Of a DNA stretch of 64,000 nt, positions 33,430 to 44,126 are shown one piece after another. This DNA is from Nitrospira sp. (GTDB lineage: Bacteria; Nitrospirota; Nitrospiria; Nitrospirales; Nitrospiraceae). Made by a program: the position numbers and the translations under genes. Below the pieces are notes generated by a model, which was not told the origin of the DNA, ran no database searches, and saw only the letters and a list, made by a program, of their open reading frames with translations. Each line of letters opens with the position of its first letter. Position 1 is the stretch's first letter. The stretch is from NCBI GenBank assembly GCA_022226935.1, contig CP092081.1:466540-530539 (forward strand). The letters run 5' to 3'.

Positions 33430-34572
33430 TCAGTTGGGCGGCGAGGTTTTGGCAATCGCCAGCGCCGGCAGAGAAGACTTACATTCCCGCACCACTTGCG
33501 CAAAGAGCTCCGTCAACTTGGGATCGAAGCGCGTATCGGCCTGCAGCAGAATCTGTCGAATGGCTTCATCGATGGATGTCGGCTGGTGTCCCGGCATATC
33601 CACCGTCAAGTTGTCGAATGCTTGCGCGATGGCGACGATCCGTGCCAGAAGCGGGATGCCTTCGCCTTCCAGGCCGTGTGGGTTGCCCACACCGTCGAAG
33701 CGTTCCTGGTGATAGGCCACGATTTGCCCGACCTCTGCCTGGAAACCAAGCGGTAACAGCATCCGAGCGCCTGCTTCGAAACATTCTCTCGCATGGGTAT
33801 TGGTCTTCAGGCTCTCATCGTCATCCGCTGAATATTTGTAGTTGGAGAGGCCGACCTTGCCGATATCATGCAGGAATGCTCCCAGCGCCAAAGCCTTTTG
33901 ATCGGGCAGCGGAAGAGTCAGCTGGTTGGCGAGAAGCGAGGCATAGAAGCTCACCCGGCTGCAATGATTGAGGAGTTGGCGGTCCTTGGCTTCGAGCAAG
34001 TCGGATAATAATGGAATGAGCGCTGTGACGTCTGCCGCGCTTCCCCTTGCGTCAGTGGAGGAATTGCCGATCGCGAAGTACTTCGATTGCAGCTCCTTCC
34101 ACGCTTGCGCCGCTTCCTGTTCGGTCCCCCACAAGGCGGTCGATGTTTTCAAAAACGATCGCAAGTAATCCAGCCGCTGTTTCTTTTCCAGGGTCTGATT
34201 GATCAGCGTGATCAGTTCCGTCACATTGAACGGCTTGAGCAGATAGCCGGCCGCGCCGTGCCGGATGCCTTCCATGGCCGATTTCAGACTGCCATAGCCT
34301 GTAATGATGATGACTTCAATGTCAGCGTAATCCTGCTTGATGTCCTGCAAGAGGTCGATACCCTGACGGTCGGGCAATTTCTGATCCAGCGTGATGAGAT
34401 CGATGTGCTGGTCTTTCAGAACCCGAAGCGCGGATTTGGCGTTATCGGCGGAGTGAATGGTGAAGAAGGGGCGAAGAATGACTTTCAGCGCGTCCCGCGG
34501 GCCTGTTTCGTCGTCGACGACCAAGACCGACGGTTTGATGCTGATCTGCTCAGCTGATGCCTGAGTTCCCAT
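33430..34572 (-). CDS. Response regulator with HD-GYP-like output
   Basis: 380 aa from ATG 34572 (an upstream extension to 34620 is possible). Receiver domain about 15-130 with D20/D21, phospho-acceptor D63 and K113. An HD domain follows at about 195-345: HDIGK 235-239 keeps the metal pair, but the hallmark HHExxDGxGYP motif reads YHQERFDGVGNP (287-298): one His is replaced by Tyr and GYP is GNP. HD-GYP domains hydrolyse c-di-GMP; the altered motif leaves activity open. Last in the minus-strand signalling block, 185 bases after the NtrC-type gene. Confidence 0.88.
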   Translation of the reverse strand: MGTQASAEQISIKPSVLVVDDETGPRDALKVILRPFFTIHSADNAKSALRVLKDQHIDLITLDQKLPDRQGIDLLQDIKQDYADIEVIIITGYGSLKSAMEGIRHGAAGYLLKPFNVTELITLINQTLEKKQRLDYLRSFLKTSTALWGTEQEAAQAWKELQSKYFAIGNSSTDARGSAADVTALIPLLSDLLEAKDRQLLNHCSRVSFYASLLANQLTLPLPDQKALALGAFLHDIGKVGLSNYKYSADDDESLKTNTHARECFEAGARMLLPLGFQAEVGQIVAYHQERFDGVGNPHGLEGEGIPLLARIVAIAQAFDNLTVDMPGHQPTSIDEAIRQILLQADTRFDPKLTELFAQVVRECKSSLPALAIAKTSPPN

Positions 34573-34757
34573 CCAGAGCGCTCCCGGTGCATTGCGAACT
34601 TCGGGAAAGACACATCGCAAAACCTGTACCGCTTACGTATATCTAAAACGGTCAATATATAGCAGGTCTCTTTATTTCAGGCCACAAGATATTTGATGCG
34701 CGAAAGCTAGCGCTGAGAAAGTATGAGACAGTTGCAGAGATTTTTGTGCCACTTGTG

Positions 34758-36173
34758 TCATTCCTGAGGCAGTGGCGCATCGGCATTGACCCCGTTACTG
34801 TCTGGCCTGCTGATCCCCAGGGTGTCCATGCGATACTTTAGCATGCGACGGCTGATGCCTAACATGGTGGCCGCATGAGTTTGTACGTATGTCGTCCGCT
34901 TGAGCGCGTCCAAGATAATTTCGCGCTCGAATTCCATCACGGCTTTTTCCAACGATAGACGTCCGGCGAGGGTGTCATCGCGAAGGGACGATGAGCGGGT
35001 ATCAGTCCGGAGGATATTCGGTAAATGCTCCGGAGTGATCACCGTGGAGCCTTTCGACCAGATGAAGGCTTGTTCGATGATATTCTCCATCTCGCGCACG
35101 TTGCCGGGCCAGGGATAATGTGAAATCAATTCGAGCGCGTCTTTCGTGAATTCCTGAGGCGGCCGTTTCTCCTCCTCAATGCGTTTCGAAAGAAAATGCT
35201 TGGCGAGAAGCGCAATGTCCTCGCCGCGTTCGCGCAAGGGCGGGAGGTAGAGCGCAATCACGTTGATACGGTAATACAAGTCCTCGCGGAACTGGTTTTT
35301 TCTGACCATCTCATCGAGGTTTTTGTTGGTCGCCGCGACGATCCGAACATCGACCTTGATGGATTGGACCCCGCCGACCCGCGTGAATTCCCGTTCTTGC
35401 AACACCCGTAAGAGTTTCGCCTGTGTGGCCGGGCTCAGATCGCCGATTTCATCGAGAAACAGCGTGCCCGTATGCGCCAACTCGAACTGCCCGACGCGGC
35501 GTGCGGTGGCATCGGTGAACGAACCTTTTTCATGGCCGAACAATTCGCTTTCGATGAGGGTTTCGGGCAAGGCCGCGCAATTGAGAGCCACGAACGGGCG
35601 TTCTCGCCGGGCGCTGTTGTAGTGAATCGCTTTGGCGACCAGTTCTTTTCCGGTCCCGCTTTCACCGGTGACCAGCACGGTGGTGCGGCTATCTGCTACT
35701 TGTTCGATTTTGGCGTAGATTTCCTGCATGGCGGGGCTTTTGCCGATGAGGTTGTGGAAGGCATAACGCTGCACCACCTGCGCGCGCAACTGGCGGACCT
35801 CTTGCTCAAGTTCCTGCTTGCCCAGTGTTCGTTCGATGACAATTTGAAGCTCTTCGACGTCGAACGGTTTGGACAGATAGTCGGCGGCCCCGAGCTTCAT
35901 GGCATCGACGGCTGTTTTCACGGCTTTGGTGCCCGTCAGCATAATCACGGGTACGGCTCGATTCTCGGTTCGCATCGTCTGAAGCACGGACAGACCGTCC
36001 GTTCCCGGCAGGATGACGTCCAGGAGGACCAGATCGGGAGTATCGTGCTTAAAACTCCTGAGGCCCTCGGCCGCGTCCGCCGCTTCGAAAATTTCATACG
36101 TCGGTTCCAAAACCGTTTTCAGCGAGGCTCGGACACGCGGCTCATCATCGACAAGAAGTACTCGTTTTTTCAT
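34758..36173 (-). CDS. NtrC-family sigma-54-dependent response regulator
   Basis: 471 aa. Receiver 1-120 with D9/D10, phospho-site D52 and K102; AAA+ domain about 142-380 with Walker A GESGTGKE (170-177); a Fis-type helix-turn-helix at the end (HAATMLGISRRMLKYRM). The sigma-54-contact loop, normally GAFTGA, reads GSFTDA (217-222), a double departure. It starts one base after the stop of the upstream histidine kinase (36175), so the pair is surely one two-component system. Target promoters would need sigma-54. Confidence 0.95.
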   Translation of the reverse strand: MKKRVLLVDDEPRVRASLKTVLEPTYEIFEAADAAEGLRSFKHDTPDLVLLDVILPGTDGLSVLQTMRTENRAVPVIMLTGTKAVKTAVDAMKLGAADYLSKPFDVEELQIVIERTLGKQELEQEVRQLRAQVVQRYAFHNLIGKSPAMQEIYAKIEQVADSRTTVLVTGESGTGKELVAKAIHYNSARRERPFVALNCAALPETLIESELFGHEKGSFTDATARRVGQFELAHTGTLFLDEIGDLSPATQAKLLRVLQEREFTRVGGVQSIKVDVRIVAATNKNLDEMVRKNQFREDLYYRINVIALYLPPLRERGEDIALLAKHFLSKRIEEEKRPPQEFTKDALELISHYPWPGNVREMENIIEQAFIWSKGSTVITPEHLPNILRTDTRSSSLRDDTLAGRLSLEKAVMEFEREIILDALKRTTYVQTHAATMLGISRRMLKYRMDTLGISRPDSNGVNADAPLPQE

Positions 36174-36174
36174 A

Positions 36175-37458
36175 TTACTCCCGTGCTGCTGACACTGTGG
36201 GGCCTGTCTCGGGAACCGGAAGATTCACGGAGAACGTGGAGCCCGCTCCGACGCGACTGTCAACCGTGAGGGTGCCCCCGTGCTCTCGGACAATCTGATG
36301 CGCGGTGGTGAGTCCGAGCCCGGCTCCTTCACTGGCACTGTTGGAATGTTTGGTGCTGAAAAAGGGATCGAAAATGTGCTCGAGGTGATCGGGCGCGATG
36401 CCGCATCCTTCATCGTCGACCTGCAATTGCACCCATGGTGGGCGGCCCGCTTCCGACATACGGCGTGTATGGACCCGAATGATGCCGTTGCCGTTAGGCA
36501 TCGCATCCAGAGCATTCAGCAGCAAATTCAGCAACACTTGTTTGATTTGTTGGCGATCAAGCGAGAGCAGAGGGAGTTGAGGTGACAGGTGCGTCTCTAC
36601 TTGAATCCCTCGATGCGCGGCGGTCGATGAGATGAAGCCGATACAGGAGGCGACGAGTTCGTTCACGTCTACCTCGGTGGGGCGAGGGGTCATATAACTG
36701 GCATAGTCGAGAATTTCATGCAGCAGGCGTTCGATGCGATGAATGTCCTCTATGGCCAGTTTACTAAATTCTTTGATGAAGACCGGATCCTGCTGTCGCT
36801 GGGGGGCCAACTGGACAAACGTTTTGATGGATGTGAGCGGATTGCGAATTTCATGGGCAAACCCGCCTGCCATGATTTCCAAGGAGCGGAGCCGGTCCGT
36901 TCGTCTCATCAGCGTGGATGAGCGGCGGAGGTCGTCTTGCGTGAGGTGATGATCGAGGCTATTGCCTGCGATGCGTGCGATTGTGTCAACGGTGGCGATG
37001 ATTTCTTCGTCGATGTGCCTATCCGTGCTGAGTGGACCCAGGACGCAGAGTCCGAGGAGCCGCCCTTTGTTTCGTAGCCCGAGACACAGGGTTGCACGAA
37101 CCGCCGTCATGGCTAACCCAACCGGAGAAGACGGTGCCTGGCTGGCATGAAACACATATGATTTGGCGGACAGCCCTGTAACGAGCGGGTGATCGCCGGT
37201 CAAAGTCGACGGTAATGAAGAGGGATGGCTGTGGCCATGGGATGCAAGGAGACGGTACTGTCCGTCTGCCGACTCTCGAATCCATAGTGCCGCTTCGGGC
37301 AACCGAGCGTGTTGCGAGAGAGTCGTCACAATCGGATGTCCGAGACAGGACACGTCTCGTGCGGATCCCAAGGTCTCAGCAAAGTCACCGATCTGTCTGA
37401 TGGTTCCCATGGATGGTGAAAGAACGGGCATGCGTCGGCTGTTCGGGTGGAGCGTCAT
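36175..37458 (-). CDS. GAF-domain sensor histidine kinase
   Basis: 427 aa with no membrane helix. A GAF-like sensory domain covers about residues 35-175; DHp H-box FAHEIRNPLTS (phospho-acceptor H202); catalytic ATPase with N-box LLNLLLNALDAM, G1 DEGCGIAPD, F-box FDPFFSTKH and G2 GAGLGLTTAH. All are intact. Starts at ATG 37431 or 37410 are also possible. Cytoplasmic kinase, cognate to the adjacent NtrC-type regulator. It lies 106 bases after the 1401-residue fusion gene. Confidence 0.93.
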   Translation of the reverse strand: MTLHPNSRRMPVLSPSMGTIRQIGDFAETLGSARDVSCLGHPIVTTLSQHARLPEAALWIRESADGQYRLLASHGHSHPSSLPSTLTGDHPLVTGLSAKSYVFHASQAPSSPVGLAMTAVRATLCLGLRNKGRLLGLCVLGPLSTDRHIDEEIIATVDTIARIAGNSLDHHLTQDDLRRSSTLMRRTDRLRSLEIMAGGFAHEIRNPLTSIKTFVQLAPQRQQDPVFIKEFSKLAIEDIHRIERLLHEILDYASYMTPRPTEVDVNELVASCIGFISSTAAHRGIQVETHLSPQLPLLSLDRQQIKQVLLNLLLNALDAMPNGNGIIRVHTRRMSEAGRPPWVQLQVDDEGCGIAPDHLEHIFDPFFSTKHSNSASEGAGLGLTTAHQIVREHGGTLTVDSRVGAGSTFSVNLPVPETGPTVSAARE

Positions 37459-37510
37459 AGTCCCGTGGGGGGAATATCAATCCGGACACCTGGTTTCCCG
37501 CAGTGTCGCC

Positions 37511-37542
37511 TCACTCACTGCATGTTTTGTGCTAGTGAGTGA
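37511..37542. promoter_or_regulatory. 9-bp inverted repeat between the fusion gene and the histidine kinase
   Basis: TCACTCACT (37511-37519) and AGTGAGTGA (37534-37542) are perfect inverted copies with a 14-base loop. It lies just after the stop of the large minus-strand gene (37565) and 53 bases before the kinase start. No T-run follows on the minus strand, so it could be an operator or an RNA hairpin that attenuates read-through. Confidence 0.4.
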
Positions 37543-37564
37543 AGTATATATGCGCCCTATTGTT

Positions 37565-40500
37565 TCAGCCAGAGGAATCCGGTTTTTCAGCGGCGGCGAG
37601 CAGAATCTGCCCGGCGAGAGTACGGACGAGTCTTGGCGCGAGAGGTGTGAAGCGGGAGAGCTGGGTGGTCAGGCTCTCTTCTTCAAACGTGTGTAATTGT
37701 CCCGTACGTAATGCCACACAGCACTGTGCCATGCGGTGCAAGGCCAAGCGCGGCGCTCCTGAAAATGCGTCGATGCCGAGTTCGTGTAAGGCCGGTCTGT
37801 AGAGGCGAGCCAGTTCTGCGGTGGGGGTGAAGGCTTTCACGATAAGTTTTCCGCCCGGACGAAGAATGCGGAAGAGTTCTCGCAACGTGTGCATCGGTGA
37901 ACGCGCAAAACTGAGCGAGAAATTCGCCGCCACACGATCGAATGAGCGATCCGCAAAGGGCAACGCTTCTGTTGAACGGCCGAGCGCCCATTGCTGAGTG
38001 ACGGGAGTCGGTGCAGAAATACGTCCCGAAAACAACTTGTCGAGGTGTTGCAAGGCTTCCTGTGTCGAGGTCCGCGCCGCATGCAGGGCGGTGGAAGAGA
38101 AGTCGAAGCCCACATACCGGAGTGGCTGATTATGGCGCCAGGTTTGAGCGCGCAGGCGGTACGCAAGATTGAGCAGGAGCAACCGGGCGAAGGAATGCAT
38201 GCCGCATCCGAGGTCCAGGAGCGCCACATTTCCATCGAGGGGTTGCAAGAGTTGATAGAGCTGATCGATCGAGTGCCAATGTGCCGGCAGCTCATCCAAG
38301 GCGCGGGTGAGATCAGTATGCGCCGTCCAGAGCCGTTCGTTGCTCGCGGTGCCGATGGCCTGTTTGTGGCGGAGTTGATCGCGTTCGAACCGGGCGCGAG
38401 TGGACGTCGCGAGTAAGAGCGACGGACGCCTGATGGCTCCAGGTTCGTGAAGAGTCTGTCCCGCTTGGCAGAGGTGTGACAATTGTTGCCAACTTGCGCG
38501 CAGCGTCAACGGTGGAATAGGGCCGGCTGTCAGAGTGGATGATGGTAACATCACTTTCCTGCCTTTGGCGCCAAGCCGAGAGAGCACTTCATTCAAAAGA
38601 GTCTGAGGAGGGGCGGGAATCGAGCAATCAGGGCCTTCTTGTTCGCCGGTTAGGACGACCACCTCCGTTCCACAGTGGGTCAGTTCCTCCTGCAGGACGG
38701 TGCCCTCCGTATACTGCGCGGCAACCGCGTCGGCCAGAAAATGGTCAATGTCGAGCGGGATGCCGAGCAAATTCCCCAGTCCCAGGCGCGTGCCGCTGAG
38801 GTGTTCCTGTAACAGATCCCGGTGATGGAGGGTTCTCAGGCAGTGTCCGAGGTCGAGGGCCGGATTAAGAAGAAGGAGGCGGCGAATCCATCTGTGCCAA
38901 TCCCGTCTTCGCAGTGCGATTCGACCGAGGAGATCCGATGCCAAAAGAGTGAGAGGCCTTTCCGGCCAATGTTCATGGACAAAGGTCAGGACCGTATCGA
39001 GGTCGTCTTCCAGGGAAGTGAACGTAGTCTGCGAAGGGTCGCCGTCGCTGAGTCCGACATGGCGGCTGTGATCGTATCGCAGTACATGAAACCCGCGGCC
39101 GGCCAGCGTATAAGCCAAGGCCACGTAGGCGTGCTGCGTCGTGCCGTATCCCGGGCAAAGGAGCACCAGCGGATCATAGTCTCCGCCGCCTCGCGTGGGG
39201 AAGTCATGCCGCAACGCAATCGTATATCCTTCACGATTTCGCAGGGTGTGTGCCGCGGTGAGAATGGGAGCATCAGACTGCGGTTCGGCCAGTTCTTGAT
39301 CTGCGCGGAACCCAGGTTCCATGATGCCACGCAGTCTCTGCTCTTGCGCGGGAGATAAATTGTCAAAGCGTATACCGATCTGATGCCGTGGTTCTCCTGT
39401 TGCGGTGAGACGTATTGTCGGCATCGTCTCTTCCCTATATCTCCAGAGGATCTGTGCCGTGAATGGTGGATCGGCCTCTTGTGATTGCGGGGCGCCGGGC
39501 ACAACTGCGTTCGATTCCATGAGACTCAGATGGATGACCTGGGAATCTCCGGGTAAGGCGCTGTCCGTGGGCAGTTCGATGCAAGCCCCGTTCAGATTCA
39601 GATTGACGATCCTGCCGAGCGGATGCGGTGAGGCCGCTTGGGATTCGGCTACGTGAACGGGACAGGACACCCTCAGTCGAACGGCTTCGCGCCGGTCTTC
39701 CGGCATGGACGGGGATGGAAGGAGATCACGGTCGTGGCTCCCTGTCCCCAGGGGGAGAGGGAGAATCAACCCTTCGAAGGTGATCTGTGGCGCCCCATCC
39801 TGCAGGCCCTCAAGCAACGACCGGAGTACATTGCGCTCATGCTCGACGGCGAGGGAGAAAGAAATTACGAAATCCTTGAGGGACGGGAGAGGCGATTCCG
39901 CGGTTGCGGATTGCCGCTCATGCACCACTCCTTGAAGTTCCAGGAAACTGACCGGTGTCTTGATGACGACATAGGCGGGCTGCAGATGGATGGAAGCCTC
40001 TATCCCCTGGATAGTCAGGAGCGCTCCCTCGGTACTCATATTGCGTAACAGCCCGCGAAGGGTGGTGCCCCCGATCGACAATTGAACGGGCAAGGAAAGG
40101 GGTTTGCGTTCTGAGCGGCGACGTTCAGAGCGTTGTTGCGGGATGTATCCAGATGGATTGCGACTATCGAACGGGGTCGGTGAGGCTGGTGGTCCCGGTG
40201 AGTCACTCAGGGAGAAGTCCTCCGAAGCAGGGATGCGGACCGTGATGGTTACACCGCTTTCGGGTGTGTGTTCGATCTCGATGGCGCCTCGATGTGCCTG
40301 AACAATTCGGTGTGCTTGAAATAAACTCTCCGCGGAACGATCGTGGCCGGATTGGCTATCCGGCGGCAGACGCAGAGCGCCGGCACTTCCCCGGATCGTA
40401 CAGCTGGCATACGTACGAAATGGCCGAGGGTGGGGTGCCACGTCTTGCGGGAGAGACCCTGGGGTTTCCACGGCCAGTGCGGCGGTTTGCAAGATCAGCC

Positions 40501-41770
40501 GGGGGGGCATGTTGTGGGATGTGGATTGGCAGGCATAGGTGAGCAAGAGGCGGGCAAGGTTTTCCAGGGCCGAACGCGACCCAAGAATGAGGGGAAGGTT
40601 GTCTGCAAAGTGTGTGGTGAGCAGAAACCGTGAGTCCTCGGTCTCGCCTGGCACCGTCCGGACAACCGTCTGAAGAATCTCATTCAGATCAAGAGGCACG
40701 AATTCGGTGGGGTGGGCATGGATCGCTTCGGCCAGTTGGTGCCCGAGCTGACTCGCTTGTGAAGCCTGGGCGACCATCGTTTCAACATGTTGCTCGATCC
40801 GGCTGTGTTGAAGAGATGTCAGCAACCGTTGTGAGTCTTGAAGTAAGGATGAGAGTGGCTGCTGCAATTGGCGGGAGACCCGTGCTGCCTCCCGCGAGAG
40901 GGTGAGCTGACGGTCGGTCTCTTGGAGTCGCGACTCCAGTTCAGCCAGGCGGTTCTGTTGAGCCTTTTGTTGAGACAGATCGCGCAGCAATCCGACCGTC
41001 CCCAGGTATTTATTGGTAGAGTCGAAGAGCCCTTTCGCGGTGACTTCCACGATGATGGGTACGTGTGGCGCCTCTGGAAGGGGTTTTCGGTACAGCGTGA
41101 GTTCTACTCGGCGCGTTGAACGACTGCCGGCCCGCCGCTCATTCAATCGGAAACGTGCGGTTGGTTCCTGTTGAGGAGGGAGCAAGAGGGAGTAGTGCCG
41201 GCCGGCGAGTTCCTCCGCACTGTATCCGAGCATCGCCGTGACTGTCGGACTCACATACACGAAACGCCCGTCCGCATCGAGTTCGTACAATAGATCGCTC
41301 AACGTTTCGATCACGCGCAGGTGGCGTTGAAACGTATGGTCCAGCTTCATTTGCAGGTCGCGCTTTTCCAGGGCTTCCTGTACCGAAAAGAGAAGCTCGG
41401 TGATAAAGCCGGGAGAGCGTTTGAAGAGCAAAAAATCAGCTCCGTGCTGGAGCGCTTGAACGGCGGTGCGCGAGTCGCTTTCGTTGGTCTGAAGCAGGAT
41501 CGCGGCATAGGGAGCATTGCGACGAAGGCGCGCGAGCAGATCCAGGCCCTGCTCCGGACTTAGATCTTGATCAATGAGAATGATCTGCCAGTCGCCCTGG
41601 CGGCTGAATGCAAGGGCATCCTCTGACGAATAACCGGCTTCGATGCGACAGCCGACGAAGAAGCTCCGCAAACTGGTCGTGACCAATTTGATTTCGTCGG
41701 GATTCTCATTGATGAGGAGGATGTGGAGCGAAGGTTCGGGCAAGGACATGGAAGATCTCATGGTCTTCAT
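37565..41770 (-). CDS. 1401-aa fusion: receiver, PAS, pseudo-kinase, two PilZ, LuxD-like pseudo-hydrolase, methyltransferase
   Basis: One uninterrupted frame. Receiver-like domain 15-130 (D67, K117; the acidic pair is reduced to N21/E22). PAS 147-265. Coiled coil 266-295. A histidine-kinase-like region 295-515 where the H-box is RQLQQPL (300-306, no His) and the N-box Asn is absent. PilZ 1 at 547-660 with RxxxR 551-555 and NMSTEG 577-582. PilZ 2 at 691-818 with R694/R698 and NLNLNG. LuxD-like alpha/beta fold 832-1100 without nucleophile or His. Class I methyltransferase 1160-1335, motif I LLDLGCG 1184-1190. No membrane segment. Function unknown; PilZ implies c-di-GMP binding. It heads the block with kinase and sigma-54 activator. 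Confidence 0.85.
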   Translation of the reverse strand: MKTMRSSMSLPEPSLHILLINENPDEIKLVTTSLRSFFVGCRIEAGYSSEDALAFSRQGDWQIILIDQDLSPEQGLDLLARLRRNAPYAAILLQTNESDSRTAVQALQHGADFLLFKRSPGFITELLFSVQEALEKRDLQMKLDHTFQRHLRVIETLSDLLYELDADGRFVYVSPTVTAMLGYSAEELAGRHYSLLLPPQQEPTARFRLNERRAGSRSTRRVELTLYRKPLPEAPHVPIIVEVTAKGLFDSTNKYLGTVGLLRDLSQQKAQQNRLAELESRLQETDRQLTLSREAARVSRQLQQPLSSLLQDSQRLLTSLQHSRIEQHVETMVAQASQASQLGHQLAEAIHAHPTEFVPLDLNEILQTVVRTVPGETEDSRFLLTTHFADNLPLILGSRSALENLARLLLTYACQSTSHNMPPRLILQTAALAVETPGSLPQDVAPHPRPFRTYASCTIRGSAGALRLPPDSQSGHDRSAESLFQAHRIVQAHRGAIEIEHTPESGVTITVRIPASEDFSLSDSPGPPASPTPFDSRNPSGYIPQQRSERRRSERKPLSLPVQLSIGGTTLRGLLRNMSTEGALLTIQGIEASIHLQPAYVVIKTPVSFLELQGVVHERQSATAESPLPSLKDFVISFSLAVEHERNVLRSLLEGLQDGAPQITFEGLILPLPLGTGSHDRDLLPSPSMPEDRREAVRLRVSCPVHVAESQAASPHPLGRIVNLNLNGACIELPTDSALPGDSQVIHLSLMESNAVVPGAPQSQEADPPFTAQILWRYREETMPTIRLTATGEPRHQIGIRFDNLSPAQEQRLRGIMEPGFRADQELAEPQSDAPILTAAHTLRNREGYTIALRHDFPTRGGGDYDPLVLLCPGYGTTQHAYVALAYTLAGRGFHVLRYDHSRHVGLSDGDPSQTTFTSLEDDLDTVLTFVHEHWPERPLTLLASDLLGRIALRRRDWHRWIRRLLLLNPALDLGHCLRTLHHRDLLQEHLSGTRLGLGNLLGIPLDIDHFLADAVAAQYTEGTVLQEELTHCGTEVVVLTGEQEGPDCSIPAPPQTLLNEVLSRLGAKGRKVMLPSSTLTAGPIPPLTLRASWQQLSHLCQAGQTLHEPGAIRRPSLLLATSTRARFERDQLRHKQAIGTASNERLWTAHTDLTRALDELPAHWHSIDQLYQLLQPLDGNVALLDLGCGMHSFARLLLLNLAYRLRAQTWRHNQPLRYVGFDFSSTALHAARTSTQEALQHLDKLFSGRISAPTPVTQQWALGRSTEALPFADRSFDRVAANFSLSFARSPMHTLRELFRILRPGGKLIVKAFTPTAELARLYRPALHELGIDAFSGAPRLALHRMAQCCVALRTGQLHTFEEESLTTQLSRFTPLAPRLVRTLAGQILLAAAEKPDSSG

Positions 41771-42090: not shown

Positions 42091-42120
42091 GCCCCCCACG
42101 GTGACCGCACTGTGGGGGGC
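42091..42120 (-). terminator. Terminator-like hairpin after the secreted His-rich protein gene
   Basis: GCCCCCCAC (42091-42099) pairs perfectly with GTGGGGGGC (42112-42120) around a 12-base loop, 16 bases beyond the stop at 42136. No T-run follows, so this is a strong hairpin with uncertain terminator activity. Confidence 0.5.
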
Positions 42121-42135: not shown

Positions 42136-43137
42136 CTAGTGCGCGGAGGCGGTGGTCGACGACTGTTGGCAGGCGCCAGGCGTCATATAGAGCAGATAGT
42201 TGCCCATGCCATGTTGAATGTTGGGGTTTTGCAGCAGATGGTGGTGAACCATCACCATTTCGTAGTCATCCTGCTTCGTCACGGAGAAGCCTTTGTTATC
42301 GCGATAGACCTGATGGGGTCGGAAGTCCCTGAATGTGCCGTCGGCATCGACTTCGGGGACGGTGCGGAGGAGCGTCTCTTTTGACGTCTTATTCTCAAGC
42401 GCCACCATGAGAAGCTCGTCATGTCCGTGAGGATAGGCGAACTTAACGCAGCCATCCATATTGAACTTCAAAGGCGCGGAAAGGACCGAAACGCCCGGCT
42501 TGATCTCGATGCCTTCGTCCGTCTGGTCCGGGCCCCGTTGTGCGAACTTGCTGTAGCACACAATATTCACGCCCACCTGGTAGACGTCCATCTCCTGCAC
42601 CTTCGCCCCTTTTGGGGCGACATACATGGTGAAGCGGGCCATCACGTCTTTCGTCGGCGGGGCTTTGTGATAAAAAGCCACGACGGACATGAGGTTTTGG
42701 CCTTTGCCCAATTTCACTCCGTATCCGTCCGGGAAACGGGCTTCCGTCATTTCCAGTCCGGCCCCCGCGAAGAACAACGGCTCTCCATCGCACGAGACGC
42801 TGGGTTTGTCATTGTTCAACATGAGGATGTGATGGAGATAATTTTTCGGAAGGGGTTTGCCATCTTTGGTAAAGACTTCGGATTTGTACCCGATCATGTA
42901 GGTGTCGTCCGGTAGTTGGAACACCTTTTTCGGCATGCTGGAAGCGAGATCGCCATCATGGCCGGTCGGCAAATCGACGGGGCCGAACGTGAGCGTGACG
43001 GTCTGGTCTTCGATGGTCAGTTTCGTCTCGCCCAAACTCGGCATGGTTGGAATAGCGTGATGATCATGTCCGCCGTCGGCATACACCAAATTCGTGACGC
43101 CCAATAACATGACTACTACCAGAAGCGCACGATTCAT
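42136..43137 (-). CDS. Secreted His-rich protein, possible copper-monooxygenase-like fold
   Basis: 333 aa from ATG 43137, with GAGGAGGGG upstream; the longer frame to 43314 is rejected. Signal peptide 1-20 ends at VYADGG. The mature protein opens GHDHH, then carries YLHHILMLNND (about residues 100-110) and EMVMVHHHLLQNP near the end, with one Cys-containing segment (IVCYSK, SCDGE). Paired and triple histidines in such positions recall the HHM/HxH copper sites of PHM/DBH-type monooxygenases and SURNod19-like proteins, but this is an analogy only. Ends QQSSTTASAH. Follows the SnoaL-like gene by 77 bases. Confidence 0.7.
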   Translation of the reverse strand: MNRALLVVVMLLGVTNLVYADGGHDHHAIPTMPSLGETKLTIEDQTVTLTFGPVDLPTGHDGDLASSMPKKVFQLPDDTYMIGYKSEVFTKDGKPLPKNYLHHILMLNNDKPSVSCDGEPLFFAGAGLEMTEARFPDGYGVKLGKGQNLMSVVAFYHKAPPTKDVMARFTMYVAPKGAKVQEMDVYQVGVNIVCYSKFAQRGPDQTDEGIEIKPGVSVLSAPLKFNMDGCVKFAYPHGHDELLMVALENKTSKETLLRTVPEVDADGTFRDFRPHQVYRDNKGFSVTKQDDYEMVMVHHHLLQNPNIQHGMGNYLLYMTPGACQQSSTTASAH

Positions 43138-43214
43138 AGGCCCCTCCTCGTTGTAACAGACCGGCCGTCCATGAGTGTGTGTGAAGCTCTGAATAGGGAG
43201 TGACCGCCCATCCG

Positions 43215-44126
43215 TTAAGGAGCCGTCGGAGGCGGGGTGAGTCGTTTCCACAGGTAGCTGCCGCCATGTTGCCGGGGCGGGATGTTGTCTCTCGTGCCGA
43301 CACGCACATACCACCAGATGCCTTTGGCTTCAGTGCCATCCTCCGAGAGAATGACTTCAAAGGCGCCTTCGCGATCGTTTCCCGTTTGCTTCCACGTGCC
43401 CTGCCACCGTCGATCGTTGAAGCTGGTGGTGGAAAACTGTCCGCCTTGCCACGTGTAGGGACCGGTGCCCTGGGCGTTCAGCGTGGCGACGTATTTCTTA
43501 TTGTCTTCGATTTCCGTCACTTCCCATTCGCCGCTTAAGTCGGTGCCGTTCGGGACAGCCGGCTGCGTATCCGAGGCGCGATGAAGCAATGCTGCGCCGT
43601 TGGCCGCCGTCTGTTCCGTTCCGCTGTCATGATGACGTGTCGACTCATGCCAGGCCACGAGAATCCATCGGCCGTTCCGTTTCTCCAGAACGCCGGTTTC
43701 ACGCAGGCGGAGCACCATGCGTTGAGCCAGATCTGCGGGATTGCTGTAGCGGATGTAGTCTAATTCCATGGCGAACCAGGCCACGTCCTTGTTGTTCCAC
43801 ATGCGCAGATTGGTGATAGGAATTTCCAGTTTGACGACCGAATCAAACTCGCTGCGCATATCGGCCGCCAGATCCGACCATCCGATGTATTTGCGTCCGT
43901 CAATCGTATAGCCGATGGCGTCCACGTCGTGTGACATATATTTGGACATGGTAGCCAGATCCCGTTCGGCATTGGCCTGAACGAGCCTGCGCAAGGTGGA
44001 TTCCGGGTCGTGCGGCTCTTCGGCTCGCGCTGCCGGAATGTACAGCAATCCTACGAGTGGACCAAGCAGGAGCCAGGTTCGGACTCGCAGACTGAACGGA
44101 CGGGAGTGATGCGATTCCATGTTCAT
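43215..44126 (-). CDS. Secreted protein with SnoaL/NTF2-like domain
   Basis: 303 aa from ATG 44126 (a second ATG at 44120). Signal peptide to about residue 36 (LLGPLVGLLYIPAARAEE). Residues about 38-155 fit the NTF2-like/SnoaL fold: LRRLVQANAERDLATMSKYMSHDVDAIG..DGRKYIGW, ending in ENGRWILVAWHES-like KRNGRWILVAWHEST. The second half (about 185-300) is a separate beta-rich domain (DLSGEWEVTEIEDNKKY; WQGTWKQTGNDREG). Periplasmic, function unknown; upstream of the His-rich protein gene on the same strand. Confidence 0.72.
   Translation of the reverse strand: MNMESHHSRPFSLRVRTWLLLGPLVGLLYIPAARAEEPHDPESTLRRLVQANAERDLATMSKYMSHDVDAIGYTIDGRKYIGWSDLAADMRSEFDSVVKLEIPITNLRMWNNKDVAWFAMELDYIRYSNPADLAQRMVLRLRETGVLEKRNGRWILVAWHESTRHHDSGTEQTAANGAALLHRASDTQPAVPNGTDLSGEWEVTEIEDNKKYVATLNAQGTGPYTWQGGQFSTTSFNDRRWQGTWKQTGNDREGAFEVILSEDGTEAKGIWWYVRVGTRDNIPPRQHGGSYLWKRLTPPPTAP

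Follow-up and report, generated by a model that had tools for sequence, protein, structure and literature searches.

A Nitrospira signalling protein carrying a LuxD-like domain without catalytic residues: a candidate regulator of an adjacent kinase/NtrC pair

LuxD, the myristoyl-acyl carrier protein (ACP) thioesterase of Vibrio harveyi (structure 1THT; Pfam family Acyl_transf_2), carries a Ser-Asp-His triad. In PilZ effectors, such as BcsA, Alg44, YcgR and MapZ, a PilZ domain is joined to an enzyme or acts on one, the methyltransferase targeted by MapZ being bound in trans (PMC7288161, PMC12564702). Here, we describe a protein in which these kinds of parts are combined. It is encoded in a 64,000-nucleotide stretch of Nitrospira sp. 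DNA (GenBank assembly GCA_022226935.1, contig CP092081.1, positions 466,540 to 530,539; hereafter referred to as the window), at positions 37565–41770 of the minus strand, on which all other stranded window features mentioned below also lie. Open reading frames, Pfam matches and genome comparison define a 1401-amino-acid product (hereafter referred to as type A) with the order receiver (REC)-PAS-pseudo-histidine kinase-PilZ-PilZ-pseudo-LuxD-methyltransferase. LuxD has the fold, including the cap region, and the RYDxxxHVGxSxG motif in common with type A and with its shorter paralogue (hereafter referred to as type B); type B also shares the triad, whereas type A lacks it and differs further from LuxD by its fusion to PilZ and methyltransferase domains. 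Types A and B have two PilZ domains on the same chain as the LuxD-like and methyltransferase domains, an arrangement not mentioned for the above effectors in the accounts consulted.

The LuxD-like alpha/beta-hydrolase domain (approximately residues 840–1110; 38441–39253) is, as judged by Pfam and alignment, a pseudo-enzyme that has lost its catalytic residues but is under purifying selection. LuxD (1THT) was its best solved relative by sequence profile (E 1e-34; next 5e-13), and was also the top match for a type B model (mean predicted local distance difference test score, pLDDT, 89) in both Foldseek (E 4.8e-18) and VIA-align (Z 31.6, 281 residues, root-mean-square deviation 2.6). In the alignment, the serine of the LuxD motif SLSAR corresponds to the serine of type B (VATSLAG) and to Asp946 of the window protein (LASDLLG; codon 38933–38935). 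The nucleophile position is occupied by Asp in 36/36 type A sequences, in which the acid and His positions have also been lost, and by Ser in all the type B (14/14) and intact outgroup (13/13) proteins, in which the other triad residues are present; the type B acid (within HAEQDAW) and His (within ALHRL) are both absent from type A. An earlier note on this DNA had called the domain LuxD-like, which holds for the fold but not for the active site. It had also suggested an acyl- or lipid-related output; this cannot come from the type A hydrolase, because the catalytic residues are lacking in all 36 sequences, and acyl chemistry, if any, would belong to the intact shorter paralogue and outgroup forms. 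The dead domain nevertheless appears to be constrained, since the pocket motifs RYDHSxHxGxSxG and PGYG vary little or not at all among type A sequences, and its ratio of nonsynonymous to synonymous substitution rates (dN/dS) lies mostly between 0.1 and 0.25. Every type A domain had a dN/dS below 1 in the 13 pairs compared, with values mostly of 0.03–0.15 for the receiver and PAS domains, 0.15–0.38 for the pseudo-kinase, mostly 0.3–0.7 for the second PilZ domain and mostly 0.09–0.24 for the methyltransferase.

The gene is a single open frame of 1401 codons. Type A was present in 25/25 Nitrospira genomes, that of the window included (relatives 50–82% identical), and full-length forms were found in 13 examined genomes from other genera of Nitrospiraceae. 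The continuity of the frame claimed in the earlier note was confirmed: an uninterrupted frame of about 1400–1450 amino acids occurs in 23 of the 25 Nitrospira genomes (in the other two it is divided over contigs) and in other genera of the family. An assembly artefact joining separate genes was rejected, because the same continuous frame recurs in the genomes of relatives across the genus. Two peptide patterns taken from the intact type were searched for in the genomes of 84,980 species, yielding 34 Nitrospirota loci and, elsewhere, three weak matches to part of the hydrolase domain; divergent relatives could be missed. In the scans made, the architecture was thus found only in Nitrospirota. 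The earlier note could recall no family with this domain order, and the architecture is indeed real and unusual: no description of it was found in the open literature searched, most subscription papers lying outside that search.

Type B, the product of a second gene in the same genome, has 934 amino acids in the order PilZ-PilZ-hydrolase-methyltransferase and is 29% identical to type A over residues 548–1396. It was detected in 22/25 Nitrospira genomes, with an intact Ser-Asp-His triad. Its gene lies 33 bp upstream of that for a 1002-amino-acid kinase with a seven-transmembrane (7TM) region and a GAF domain, and adjoins Pup-proteasome genes. This Pup-proteasome cluster, just upstream of the intact paralogue (L159:888–7710, plus strand), is conserved genus-wide and comprises an Mpa-like AAA protein, two Pup ligase/Dop-type proteins and two proteasome subunits. 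In outgroups L108 and L111, REC-PAS-PilZ-PilZ-intact hydrolase-methyltransferase forms one protein, followed in L111 by a 7TM kinase, NtrC and HD-GYP, with the same flanking genes as in the window; L108 is a short contig in which only the start of the following kinase is visible. A tree of 68 proteins placed the Nitrospiraceae type A sequences in one group (100/99), with the exception of the long-branch L084, and type B with the intact outgroups. This tree is unrooted, and we infer the order of evolutionary events from it. Because the outgroup loci combine the receiver, PAS, PilZ, hydrolase and methyltransferase parts in one gene, the most plausible reading of the Nitrospira pair is the split of a single ancestral gene, the duplicates dividing its parts, which would be the simplest history. 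The ancestor would have joined a PilZ-gated LuxD-like acyl hydrolase or acyltransferase to a methyltransferase, behind a receiver-PAS front. Its gene would have had as neighbors those for a membrane-bound histidine kinase, for NtrC and for an HD-GYP regulator resembling cyclic diguanylate (c-di-GMP) phosphodiesterases. After the split in Nitrospira, type B would have retained an intact hydrolase and a 7TM kinase as its partner, and type A the receiver-PAS inputs, now carrying a pseudo-kinase and pairing with a soluble kinase.

The kinases encoded beside these genes differ with the state of the hydrolase. Membrane segments were predicted with a simple hydropathy window in a comparison of 50 loci (some redundant), cognate kinases being counted where the gene sequence was present. 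The cognate kinase had 3–12 predicted membrane segments at every locus with an intact hydrolase (8 type B and 11 distinct outgroup loci), and likewise beside a PilZ-ketoacyl-synthase gene (L148, L116), but 0–1 in L126 and in the 20 type A loci, that of the window among them; a separate kinase is lacking in L118. This pattern fits, without proving, an arrangement in which the product of the active enzyme is read by a membrane kinase and the dead copy is paired with a soluble kinase. Moreover, two genomes lack type A only and retain kinase-NtrC-HD-GYP (one 2.0-Mb genome lacks the whole block), and sister genera carry type A without any type B match; the behavior of type A is therefore that of an accessory input to the kinase and its NtrC partner.

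This accessory pattern and the correlation between kinase membrane segments and hydrolase state lead us to favor, with about even confidence, a reading of type A as a regulator with several inputs, retired from catalysis, that carries a ligand-binding pseudo-hydrolase and acts on the adjacent kinase/NtrC pair. The cytoplasmic protein would have lost hydrolase catalysis and kept the pocket; it would integrate receiver phosphorylation, a PAS signal, c-di-GMP bound by PilZ, an acyl ligand and possibly S-adenosylmethionine (SAM), and would physically control the kinase and, through it, sigma-54 transcription. Type B probably makes an acyl product. We propose more tentatively that the two belong to a Nitrospirota circuit based on an acyl derivative, such as a fatty-acid methyl ester, with a c-di-GMP-gated type B synthase signaling to the 7TM kinase and NtrC, and type A, a duplicated synthase copy without catalysis, serving in Nitrospira as an intracellular receptor for the same kind of molecule, coupled to the soluble kinase. 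Several points weigh against the regulator reading. The kinase correlation comes from only two or three independent losses, and the membrane segments were counted by a simple measure of hydropathy. A TATACT box about 15–22 nucleotides after the type A stop codon (within 37459–37564), conserved in 22/22 sequences aligned by eye, is a likely -10 element for the adjacent kinase gene and suggests that the kinase is transcribed separately. In addition, motif I of the methyltransferase is intact in Nitrospira type A, leaving room for an enzymatic role.

Such a role would make type A a methyltransferase controlled by c-di-GMP and phosphorylation, with the dead LuxD domain as an acyl-ACP docking or substrate-presenting module supplying it. 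The methyltransferase domain (approximately residues 1176–1396; 37583–38245) has the features of class I SAM methyltransferases, with a glycine-rich motif I (LDLGCG) and an acidic residue after beta2 (VGFD); LDxGCG is kept and VGxD mostly kept in nearly all Nitrospira type A sequences, and both the low dN/dS of this domain and the retained LuxD pocket motif would suit such an enzyme. However, motif I is degenerate in the four type A sequences of genus g12, in which the gene is otherwise conserved, and CNLVLGYV and SNLKPYADLS, which surround the methyltransferase site in the intact family, are altered in type A, such that we consider this explanation possible but doubtful. We judge it unlikely that type A is essentially a REC-PAS-PilZ signaling protein in which the pseudo-hydrolase and methyltransferase merely hold the fold or a dimer: the receiver and PAS domains do have the lowest dN/dS in most pairs, and the same locus in the relative L085 has no hydrolase at all, but the invariance of Asp946 and the pocket residues and the purifying selection on the dead domain argue against a fossil. 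Finally, the invariance of Asp946 at the nucleophile elbow (36/36) is not random, and this residue might be a new nucleophile catalyzing another reaction, as in haloalkane dehalogenases, epoxide hydrolases and OleB. Asp-nucleophile hydrolases require a catalytic His and an acid, but no type A sequence has either residue in the corresponding columns of the alignment, making this explanation highly improbable.

Pfam matches above curated cutoffs were obtained for Response_reg (residues 17–118; 41417–41722), PAS (152–264; 40979–41317), PilZ (two stretches), Hydrolase_4/Acyl_transf_2 (840–976) and Methyltransf_11 (1185–1311), and the receiver with D67, the PAS domain and the methyltransferase motif that the earlier note had listed were all recovered by Pfam and motif inspection. 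The receiver keeps D67, a Thr and Lys117, its acidic pair being Asn-Glu; the relative L084 has Glu at the phosphoacceptor position. No Pfam match was obtained at the threshold used for residues ~285–520 (approximate bounds; 40211–40918), but an AlphaFold model of residues 1–545 (mean pLDDT 74) matched PAS-histidine kinases in Foldseek. The phospho-accepting His is replaced by Arg (SRQLQQPL) and the N-box Asn has also been replaced, leaving a match to the fold only, and pseudo-kinase, the term used in the note, is therefore a fair name. In the relative L118, marginal HisKA and HATPase matches are still present. A 676-amino-acid hybrid kinase in genus g11 (L166:805–2835, minus strand) has a type A-like REC-PAS front and an intact-looking HisKA motif (AHDFNN), and is a possible source of the pseudo-kinase front. 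The note had listed RxxxR and NxSxxG, the c-di-GMP receptor motifs (RxxxR, [D/N]xSxxG), for PilZ. The first PilZ domain (approximately residues 548–655; 39806–40129) has both (RRSER, NMSTEG), but the second (692–816; 39323–39697), the fastest-evolving domain, has RxxxR (REAVR) and reads NLNLNG in this species. A putative link to c-di-GMP is supported by these motifs and the HD-GYP neighbor.

Three regulatory genes adjoin type A. They encode a soluble GAF-HisKA-HATPase histidine kinase with its active-site His (36175–37458), an NtrC-type sigma-54 response regulator (34758–36173) and a REC-HD-GYP regulator (33430–34620) in which HD is kept, GYP reads GVGNP and HHE reads YHQE, making its phosphodiesterase activity uncertain. 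The order recN, REC-HD-GYP, NtrC, kinase, type A was constant in 19 loci from other genomes, followed by genes for a signal-peptide protein without a Pfam match, SnoaL_3, PP2C and RNase_H_2, one flanking gene being undetected in a few loci. NtrC was 80–97% identical across most of the family (74% in L148), versus 31–80% for type A. The gene at 42136–43314 has a product that begins like a signal peptide and matched nothing in Pfam or NCBIfam; this gene is conserved here with the SnoaL_3 gene, and both are also kept in genomes that have lost type A. A terminator-like inverted repeat (13 nucleotides, 4-nucleotide loop; 42091–42120) lies just downstream from it. A scan for sigma-54 promoters gave 62 sites, where chance alone would give about 70, and thus no evidence of such promoters.

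In genus g14, the type A slot is occupied by the gene also seen in L085, encoding a REC-PAS-PilZ-methyltransferase protein of about 740 amino acids without a hydrolase (L148:7697–9913, minus strand). Fusions of PilZ to a FabH-like ketoacyl-ACP synthase III were found at L148:5933–7498 (minus), L116:4243–5838 (plus) and L178:8622–10175 (minus), the PilZ domain being identified by Pfam for L148. In L148 and L116, the fusion gene is flanked by the methyltransferase gene on one side and the 7TM kinase gene on the other, and it is precisely in these loci that the hydrolase is missing or carries a Ser-to-Asn change; in the L148 copy, the usual motifs contain Cys, His and Asn. These fusions are not general: they occurred in 2/148 genomes in the phylum sample, and in addition at loci L039 and L116.

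The type A protein would be a natural and clear example of how an enzyme can become a regulatory domain, here within a two-component/c-di-GMP protein for which an intact paralogue, intermediates and natural deletions are all available for comparison, and yields testable predictions for a globally important genus of nitrifiers with poorly known lifestyle control. The data point to a regulatory circuit tying lipid-type chemistry to c-di-GMP and sigma-54 control, of which no description was found in the open literature searched. The earlier note had singled out the window protein as its best candidate for an undescribed system; the novelty stands as far as searched, but the note did not connect the protein to the genes for the adjacent kinase, NtrC and HD-GYP regulator.

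Among the systems compared, the NCBIfam LuxD equivalog has a cutoff of 420 bits, of which type A (35.7 bits) and type B (86.0 bits) fell far short, and luxCDE-type luminescence was rejected, the sole LuxC match being marginal (21.8 bits for a 21-bit cutoff) and in a 1015-amino-acid frame. A search for N-acyl homoserine lactone synthases gave no match, but the controls were equally without a match, so absence is not implied. Escherichia coli YnbC has the same alpha/beta-hydrolase-methyltransferase order, with no annotated PilZ, and lies beside the phospholipid-type genes ynbA/ynbB; membership of type A or B in this family was rejected, BLASTP revealing no significant similarity. PhcB is not known to be fused to PilZ or to a hydrolase. 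The PhcB-PhcS-PhcR/Q quorum-sensing system of Ralstonia, with a SAM methyltransferase in an operon with a sensor kinase, is similar by analogy only (PMC8578825). The PrsK/PrsR exopolysaccharide two-component system (TIGR02916/TIGR02915; PMC1569441) likewise has an NtrC-type partner. In the genome of the window, no protein matched PrsK better than the two partner kinases (145 and 113 bits, below the 300-bit cutoff), and NtrC, with 440 bits against TIGR02915 (below the cutoff of 502.6), ranked only third; three exosortase matches were also obtained in this genome. The parts of the locus are thus of known kinds, whereas their combination and the split of an enzyme into a regulator appear to be new.

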